A stretch of DNA of 64,000 nt, taken from the NCBI GenBank assembly GCA_023251555.1, contig JAHEYN010000016.1:1-64000 (forward strand). Direction: 5' to 3'. Below, in pieces: positions 18,715-23,535 of the stretch (its first letter is position 1; each line of letters starts with the position of its first letter). The notes under the pieces were generated by a model. The model was not told the origin of the DNA. It made no database searches and was given only the letters and a program-made list of their open reading frames with translations. Source of the DNA: Bacteroidota bacterium. Lineage in GTDB: Bacteria; Bacteroidota; Bacteroidia; AKYH767-A; JAHEYN01. The position numbers were made by a program, and so were the translations under genes.

Positions 18715-19092
18715 ATGGCGAAAACGAAAAAGCCTGACAGTGGAAAAAAGTTGGTCAGTGCTGCGATAAAAGGCTTGCAGGAAAAAAAGGGGAGAGAGAT
18801 AGCCAGCCTCGATTTAAGAAACTTAAAAAATGCTGTTACGGATTATTTCGTTGTATGTCATGCAGCTTCGAGAACAAACGTCCTTTCGCTTGCTGCCGCT
18901 GCAGAAGAAGCCATCCATAAGGCAACAGGTGAAAGTCCCTGGCACCGCGAGGGGTTTGAAAATGCCGAATGGGTTCTCCTCGATTACGTTAACATGGTAG
19001 TTCACATCTTCCTCGAAGATGCCCGTACATTCTATGGAATAGAACGCCTCTGGGCCGATGCCGATATAAAAAAGGCGGCGGGAGCATACTGA
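18715..19092 (+). CDS. rsfS: Ribosomal silencing factor RsfS
   Basis: 125 residues, normal length. RsfS binds protein L14 (uL14) on the 50S subunit and blocks subunit joining during starvation. Recognisable parts are LRNLKNAVTDYFVVCHAASRTNVLSLA, HREGFENAEWVLLDY and VVHIFLEDARTFYGIERLW, which match the DUF143/RsfS core. It is followed by ftsH after 62 bases, the usual order in the phylum. Confidence 0.95.
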   Translation: MAKTKKPDSGKKLVSAAIKGLQEKKGREIASLDLRNLKNAVTDYFVVCHAASRTNVLSLAAAAEEAIHKATGESPWHREGFENAEWVLLDYVNMVVHIFLEDARTFYGIERLWADADIKKAAGAY

Positions 19093-23003: not shown

Positions 23004-23028
23004 AAAACCCCGCCTGTGGCGGGGTTTT
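23004..23028. terminator. Strong hairpin terminator between cdsA and the Lys/Ala-rich small gene
   Basis: Perfect 11-bp stem: AAAACCCCGCC, loop TGT, GGCGGGGTTTT. A-rich and T-rich arms make it usable from both strands, so it can end the cdsA transcript and the convergent short gene at 23067-23138. Confidence 0.9.
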
Positions 23029-23066: not shown

Positions 23067-23138
23067 TTACTTCTTTTTCTTCTTAGCGGCGGCTTTTTTC
23101 TTGGGGGCAGCTTTTTTCTTTGCTTTTTTTGTTGCCAT
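23067..23138 (-). CDS. 23-residue Lys/Ala-rich basic peptide (histone H1-like)
   Basis: ATG at 23138 to TAA at 23067. Translation is M-A-T followed by alternating Lys runs and Ala runs with one Pro: 14 of 23 residues are Lys, and there is no acidic residue. The composition is that of the tails of histone H1-like and AlgP-like proteins, which bind nucleic acid without sequence preference, but it is far shorter than known bacterial H1-like proteins. It faces cdsA, is followed by the bidirectional terminator, and has about 400 bases of A+T-rich sequence upstream. Codons mix AAA and AAG, GCA, GCT and GCC, so it is not a simple DNA repeat. No start-proximal ribosome site or TAnnTTTG box was found. 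Confidence 0.65.
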   Translation of the reverse strand: MATKKAKKKAAPKKKAAAKKKKK

Positions 23139-23535
23139 GTTTTTTGTTTTTAATTAGTGAATTGTGAATGAACTCATACAAAGGAAATCAAATTTTTAAC
23201 TGAGCAAATAAAGAGCAGTGTCATTTTATTAACAAAGAATTGTTAATAGCATTGTGTTGAAAAGCAAACCTGTTTTTTATTTCTTGATTTTCTAATCCTG
23301 GCGACTCATTGATTTTAAAAAGTTATGAAACCATTGACTGTATTGTGTTTCAAACGAATAATAAAATATTGTCTTCATCCTGTCTTGTAGAAGTACACTT
23401 TCATCATCAGCTAAAAATGAAAATCATCCGGTAAAATTCCGGCTCGAAAAAGAAAAATACCCGAAAGAAAAACAGTCCATCAGTATTGCCGGACAAGTAT
23501 TATTATTCAATACCTTTGAAAACTTAACTTTAACC
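23139..23535. other. A+T-rich intergenic region with an inverted repeat
   Basis: About 400 bases without a supportable gene between two divergent genes. It contains an inverted repeat with perfect 8-base arms, ATTAACAA-AGAA-TTGTTAAT, at 23228-23247, and the promoter box of the downstream SDR gene. Otherwise nothing recognisable was seen. Confidence 0.6.
23511..23518 (+). promoter_or_regulatory. Promoter for the SDR gene at 23536
   Basis: TACCTTTG, 17 bases before the ATG. A TATTG at 23484-23488, 22 bases upstream, could be the -33 element. Confidence 0.65.

Follow-up and report, generated by a model that had tools for sequence, protein, structure and literature searches.

A free-standing 23-residue Lys/Ala-rich peptide gene of a Bacteroidota bacterium and similar genes in the class Bacteroidia

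The DNA-binding part of chlamydial Hc1 is its Lys-rich C-terminal half, HC2 is Lys/Ala-rich throughout, and BpH1 of Bordetella is grouped with the Burkholderia-type histone H1-like protein. The AlgP and PhaF proteins of Pseudomonas have been described as having a Lys/Ala/Pro-rich, disordered, and repeat-rich cationic DNA-binding tail, and for AlgP it was reported that KPAA-repeat peptides bind DNA in vitro and that the tail is needed for the spacing of polyphosphate (polyP) granules (PMC9239181). Among SWIB proteins, plant chloroplast SWIB-4, which has a histone H1 motif, was reported to complement an E. coli hns mutant (PMC3933795), and a SWIB protein of the Chlamydia-related Waddlia to bind along the whole genome (PMC6426960).

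The window, i.e., the whole stretch of 64,000 nucleotides analyzed here, contains a 23-codon gene whose product, MATKKAKKKAAPKKKAAAKKKKK, is like these tails and differs from each of these proteins. The window peptide is several times shorter than Hc1 and HC2 of Chlamydia and lacks the Hc1 head. The model of the Burkholderia-type protein (hist_H1_lk_Burk) has 195 positions, far above the 23 residues of the peptide, although longer relatives score weakly against it. In AlgP/PhaF the tail has KPAA units and is one domain of a larger protein, whereas the window peptide consists of a tail only. Tails of several SWIB/MDM2 proteins in family f3 of the same order start with MATKKAKKKAPAKK..., nearly equal to MATKKAKKKAAPKKK of the window peptide, but these proteins carry the SWIB domain and the peptide has none.

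The peptide gene and its surroundings

The gene occupies positions 23067..23138 of the window, stop codon included, and is read on the minus strand (23138->23067). Its codons are ATG GCA ACA AAA AAA GCA AAG AAA AAA GCT GCC CCC, continuing AAG AAA AAA GCC GCC GCT AAG AAG AAA AAG AAG TAA, and the opposite (plus) strand at 23067-23138 reads LLLFLLSGGFFLGG... The 23-codon ORF from ATG to TAA thus lies exactly where the initial annotation had placed it without stating the strand. The peptide consists of 13 Lys, 7 Ala, 1 Pro, 1 Thr, and 1 Met, with a computed pI of ~11.1 and net charge of ~+12.5. It has no Asp or Glu, in agreement with the earlier description, which had given 14 Lys and 6 Ala and has to be corrected in these two counts. 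The mixed choice of synonymous codons (AAA/AAG for Lys and GCA/GCT/GCC for Ala), also described earlier, was seen in the ORF. ORFs with at least 35% Lys, at least 70% Lys+Ala, and no acidic residue occurred once in the window and never in 300 dinucleotide-preserving shuffles of it. The product is most likely a cytoplasmic, unstructured, and highly cationic Lys/Ala peptide. No second copy of the gene was found in the window genome (G000) by one protein search and two patterns.

The gene is the lone ORF in the 584-base gap between cdsA (phosphatidate cytidylyltransferase, PF01148; 22136..22951, plus strand), with which it is convergent, and an NAD-dependent epimerase/dehydratase-like gene (PF01370; 23536..24549, plus strand), from which it diverges. 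Between the peptide gene and cdsA, a stem-loop with a U-run at 23004..23028 (either strand) has the form of an intrinsic terminator, with a perfect 11-pair stem and a 3-nt loop. A 72-nt stretch containing it folds at -31.4 kcal/mol (z = -5.1), with none of 200 shuffles as good; a simple consensus scan did not report it. The strong terminator claimed for the 3' side of the ORF was thereby borne out. It would be usable from both sides and would serve both the peptide gene and cdsA.

The 25 bases before the ATG (AATTCACTAATTAAAAACAAAAAAC; 23139..23163, minus strand) are A-rich and G-free, with A at all four of positions -3, -6, -12, and -13. Among 75 Lys/Ala genes of this study (77 distinct genes picked by composition, minus the doubtful L039 and L199), A was found at -3 in 72, at -6 in 60, at -12 in 62, and at -13 in 67. 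In Flavobacterium johnsoniae, adenines at these positions were reported to promote translation (PMC6847099). Judged by sequence, the start context of the peptide gene is of the kind typical of well-translated genes. Farther upstream, TTCCTTTG (23179..23186, minus strand), 40 nt 5' of the ATG, is a candidate Bacteroidota -7-like promoter element and an imperfect match to TAnnTTTG; its counterpart in the related genome G001 is TTACTTTG, 39 nt 5' of the ATG (both distances counted by hand). TAnnTTTG was present within 150 bases upstream of 27 of the 77 Lys/Ala genes vs. 8.6 expected (at most 16 in 200 resamplings), and TTG-N16-22-TAnnTTTG upstream of 11 vs. 1.2 expected (at most 5), where the 77 distinct composition-picked genes include L039 and L199, the resampling is first-order, and related genomes are non-independent. 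The exact TAnnTTTG was missing upstream of 50 of the 77 genes, including those of the window and G001. An inverted repeat, TTAACAAAGAATTGTTAA (23229..23246, either strand), lies 5' of the candidate promoter; half of it is conserved in G001 by eye, and it is possibly a regulator site.

Conservation in the family, order, and class

A search for CdsA found it in 59 of 61 genomes (the window genome and 60 relatives). In G001, the only other genome of the family compared, CdsA is 54% identical to that of the window, and the same slot and strand beside cdsA hold a 53-aa gene (MATKKKAAPKKKAAA... / MATKKKAAPKKKAAAPKKK...) followed by its own hairpin. Part of the 53-aa gene is built of near-perfect 21-base units. 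An isocitrate-dehydrogenase-like gene (named by eye) stands where the window has the NAD-epimerase-like gene, and the upstream DNA has diverged save for the short blocks TTAACAnTTCTnTGTTnATAAA and AAATnTGAnTTnCTTTGTA and the A-rich leader (by eye). Conservation of the frame next to cdsA in relatives had been proposed in the initial annotation as a check, and in this one relative within the family it was confirmed: the 24 aligned codons comprise 17 identical, 7 synonymous, and 0 non-synonymous. Ungapped pairs elsewhere gave synonymous/non-synonymous counts of 4/0 (G009/G021), 7/0 (G034/G037), 13/1 (G029/G037), and 3/0 (G084/G120). Less clean pairs were G056/G184 (3/2, ungapped), G012/G003 (10/3), and G000/G184 (8/4); the amino acids served as a guide where codon alignments had gaps. 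As a frame control, 4-6 non-synonymous differences between G000 and G001 were counted in four of the five other frames. The wobble-aligned antisense frame was nearly as clean as the sense frame (7/0 for G001; 9/1 vs. 11/1 in sense for G046), and codon data alone therefore leave the strand unfixed; the orientation rests on the ATG, the A-rich leader, the terminator, and the SWIB fusions described below. We regard it as almost certain that the peptide gene is real and conserved, under selection at the protein level.

Linkage to cdsA as a general rule was ruled out. No such ORF was found at 28 cdsA loci of the order and class (L003-L030), and among 45 cdsA loci of named genomes it was seen only at L064, apparently the G001 contig (CANFOZ010000007.1); L063, the best-matching named cdsA locus besides G001, was without it. 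Since the ORF lies beside cdsA in only two genomes, its place there is, among the loci read, a trait of the family.

A protein-profile search for relatives gave too much low-complexity noise and overlooked true members, and was replaced by DNA patterns with reversed-pattern controls. For the order, several patterns of unequal sensitivity were applied to 42 genomes (one pattern to 11 of these), and the ORFs were then read. The C-terminal pattern was noisy, with control counts about equal, and of its matches listed only those confirmed as ORFs were used. Of the 33 near-complete genomes of the order, 32 were found by pattern matching and ORF reading to carry free-standing Lys/Ala genes; in the remaining one (G025), the expected place lies beyond the contig end. 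The genes of G004, G017, G023, G030, G031, and G032 were found only by reading beside the expected neighbor gene, and G023 is outside the 33. Counted as carriers were G015, with a 22-aa, partly Gly-rich form (MAKKKKAAKKGGKKKGGKKRKK), and G030, in which the gene is incomplete in the stretch read.

The loci of these genes are kept within clades. In nine genomes of family f3, forms of 17-32 aa lie upstream of, and on the same strand as, a gene with the mandelate racemase fold (MR_MLE_C match), which we take to encode a dipeptide epimerase; one of these forms, MAKAKKAAKKAKKATKKAAKKKK, is identical between G009 and G021, whose genes for it differ by 4 synonymous changes. In 17 genomes of family f4, forms of 27-150 aa are found directly downstream of, and on the same strand as, a class I/II aminotransferase-fold gene (PF00155). 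Six f4 genomes have the gene away from the aminotransferase gene, five of them by a presumably mnmA-like (tRNA modification) gene and one (G028) after what we take to be a ribosomal-protein-L27-like gene. The Lys/Ala gene was not found in the f4 genome G041, and family f5 has forms of 44-79 aa. Another small basic ORF (35 aa), M...KKKPSKARK(S/T)AKAIVIGFKPI..., was observed between the aminotransferase-fold and Lys/Ala genes of G004 (L292:2782-2889) and G010 (L243:1473-1580); the G004 product matched no Pfam family, and its (V/I)IGFK motif is seen again close to the N-terminus in the long Lys/Ala proteins at L246, L237, L271, and L296.

Of 396 genomes of the class Bacteroidia with a completeness of at least 90%, 124 were matched by the start-anchored pattern vs. 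5 by the reversed control, the matches including chance non-ORFs and SWIB tails. Forty-two class loci were read, 22 taken automatically and 20 chosen by hand as ORF-like among the matches listed; 36 were free-standing, 5 SWIB-fused, and 1 neither, proportions that do not represent a random rate. The 36 free-standing loci belong to 12 families outside the order. Among the loci read, the forms nearest to the window peptide were those of G148 (27 aa, MATKKAKKKAAPKKKAAKAKKKTSKRK), G084 and G120 (30 aa), G046 (25 aa), and G056 and G184 (23 aa). The gene and a relative of the f3 epimerase gene converge at 17 of the 42 loci, which belong to five families. Free-standing Lys/Ala genes thus range from about 17 to 150 aa. 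By our definition, the gene of a free-standing Lys/Ala peptide of Bacteroidia has an ATG and a stop codon of its own, an A-rich leader, and a terminator, and encodes at least 50% Lys+Ala without any further domain; the window gene has all of these features. Low-complexity peptides can recur independently, and homology among the cdsA, epimerase, and aminotransferase loci is therefore unproven. In open-access full-text literature, as judged by listing, we found no paper on free-standing Lys/Ala peptides of Bacteroidota, and searches with literal peptide strings gave a single unrelated paper.

An amino-acid attenuator leader peptide was considered and rejected for the window gene, as the gene has a terminator at its end, is convergent with cdsA, and has relatives of up to 150 aa; the 17 class loci convergent with the epimerase gene also oppose it. 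In the nine f3 genomes, where the tiny gene precedes the epimerase gene on the same strand, a leader role may apply.

Relation to Hc1, SWIB, and other Lys-rich proteins

The 23- and 53-aa forms matched no Pfam family at E up to 10 and no NCBIfam model, and neither matched the ~57-residue Hc1 domain (PF07432). HC2 (PF07382, cut-off 40 bits) did not match the 23-, 53-, or 44-aa forms, and hist_H1_lk_Burk (NF038053, cut-off 80 bits) did not match the 23-, 53-, 44-, or 78-aa forms. Three longer relatives of 65, 94, and 142 aa gave partial, sub-cut-off matches to HC2 (E 0.0018, 4e-4, and 0.3; 11.6-21 bits) and sub-cut-off scores of at most 29.5 bits with hist_H1_lk_Burk (E 4e-4, 4e-5, and 8e-7). 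For AlgP/PhaF, the 23 residues of the peptide include neither an N-terminal domain nor a KPAA unit; for SWIB, the peptide stops after 23 residues without a SWIB/MDM2 domain. By the tests made, the peptide is outside the Hc1, HC2, hist_H1_lk_Burk, AlgP, and SWIB families. The initial annotation had likened it to a free-standing histone H1 tail, and this likeness is supported by the scores of the three longer relatives and by the resemblance to tails fused to SWIB. By analogy, we think that the peptide would work like the tails of these proteins.

The SWIB domain (PF02201) was found in 31 of the 42 genomes of the order, and 28 of the 30 SWIB loci read have a basic tail, which in f3 often begins MATKKAKKK. 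No SWIB domain was found in G000 or G001. A complementation, with the free tail only where SWIB is lost, was ruled out (Fisher p = 1): among near-complete genomes, the free tail is present in 7 of 7 without SWIB vs. 25 of 26 with it. Recent truncation of a SWIB gene was also ruled out, as G000 and G001 are both without SWIB and G001 shares the free-standing form. Ancient descent from a SWIB tail is possible.

Hc1 was found in 12 of the 42 genomes of the order, i.e., in both of f1, 10 of 11 of f3, and none of f4 or f5. Hc1 consists of the tail-less head alone in G000 and G001 (58 aa each) and in G009 (61 aa). The head-only Hc1 gene of G000 (C16:101437-101607, minus strand) is outside the window, just 3' of a class I/II aminotransferase-fold gene; Hc1 has this position directly behind such a gene in G001 and G009 as well. 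Hc1 and the aminotransferase-fold gene form a conserved pair in these three genomes. The aminotransferase-adjacent slot that holds Hc1 there is filled by the Lys/Ala gene in the 17 f4 genomes. Tails were of 17-53 aa (median 23) in 11 genomes with Hc1 and of 27-150 aa (median 87) in 27 genomes without it (Mann-Whitney p = 4e-6), a contrast confounded with family (f1 and f3 vs. f4 and f5). For this test, G027, with two tails, was entered with its 18-aa one, and G002, G025, G030, and G041 were excluded. Exceptions are the short tails of G006 (32 aa), G010 (28 aa), and G004 (27 aa), which are without Hc1.

Lys-rich tails also occur on several unrelated proteins of the order. The gene upstream of ftsH, which we take to be RsfS-like (ribosomal silencing factor), has an N-terminal Lys/Ala/Pro-rich extension of ~90 residues in G001 (L032:16-672, plus strand), and its window counterpart (18715-19092, plus strand) has only a short MAKTKKPDSGKK start. 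In the proteins at L183:1444-2433 (G034) and L184:1399-2565 (G041), the C-terminal domain presumably resembles a DksA/TraR-type zinc-finger protein and is joined to a long Lys/Ala/Pro/Val-rich tail.

Proposed function and significance

From the precedents of AlgP, SWIB-4, the Waddlia SWIB protein, and chlamydial Hc1, we infer a polyanion-binding, most likely nucleoid, role for the peptide, with a probability of about 0.6. The peptide would be made in quantity and bind polyanions through its charge. Its likeliest target would be chromosomal DNA, which would be neutralized and the nucleoid compacted as by the Lys/Ala/Pro tails of H1-like proteins; RNA or ribosomes and polyphosphate may be further partners. 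Length may be tuned by repeat number, so that the genes would grow or shrink by whole KKKAAP-like units.

The head-only Hc1 of G000 and G001 raises the alternative of a split linker histone, in which this head and the tail peptide would act in trans as the halves of a chlamydial-type Hc1. The shortness of tails in genomes with Hc1, their length in those without it, and the placing of the tail gene in the Hc1 slot by the 17 Hc1-less f4 genomes are consistent with such a division. However, the length contrast coincides with family, short tails occur in the Hc1-less G004, G006, and G010, and the head and the tail are on different contigs in G000, and we consider this alternative unlikely. It is likewise improbable that the peptide is an RNA or ribosome binder, like the lysine-rich tails of ribosomal proteins, that aids rRNA folding or ribosome storage. 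Its composition and its start context of the well-translated kind would suit this role, as would the L27-like neighbor in G028 and the mnmA-like neighbor in five genomes, but the neighbors at the commonest loci are metabolic, and the domain fusions and slot sharing indicate SWIB and Hc1 instead.

A role in organizing polyphosphate or other granules, like the one proposed for AlgP, or as a lysine and counter-ion store would draw on the requirement of the AlgP tail for granule spacing (PMC9239181). However, the peptide lacks the large N-terminal domain and the KPAA units of AlgP, and no polyP or PHA gene was noticed by eye among the neighbors printed, which makes this role quite improbable. It is very improbable that the stretch is no protein gene, i.e., a chance A-rich ORF or a small RNA. 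Its short, purine-rich, low-complexity sequence and the almost equally clean antisense frame would fit such a reading, but the shuffles yielded no comparable ORF, the changes between relatives are mostly synonymous, and similar tails are fused in frame to SWIB. Eight Rfam matches, all far below gathering scores, were rejected as chance.

Beyond the nucleoid or polyanion-binding role proposed here, it is conceivable, although doubtful, that Bacteroidia have a widespread and uncatalogued histone-H1 system in pieces, consisting of head-only Hc1 and tail peptides, some of 17-32 residues. SWIB-tail fusions, the replacement of Hc1 by the tail gene in its slot in f4, and lengthening by repeats as heads were lost would be parts of the same system. 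If this is true, few of the dedicated chromatin proteins known would be as small as the window peptide.

The default minimum gene length of Prodigal is 90 bases. Because many of these genes are below common gene-length limits, they would be missing from many annotations and proteomes. If the role proposed here is true, the peptide would provide a minimal, testable model of a lysine-rich tail acting without a folded head and would bear on how linker histones were put together from separate pieces. As similar genes occur in many families of Bacteroidia, the peptide may represent a common but unstudied means by which DNA or other polyanions are packed. If the peptide is made and binds the nucleoid, a major bacterial class would have a histone-tail-like component.
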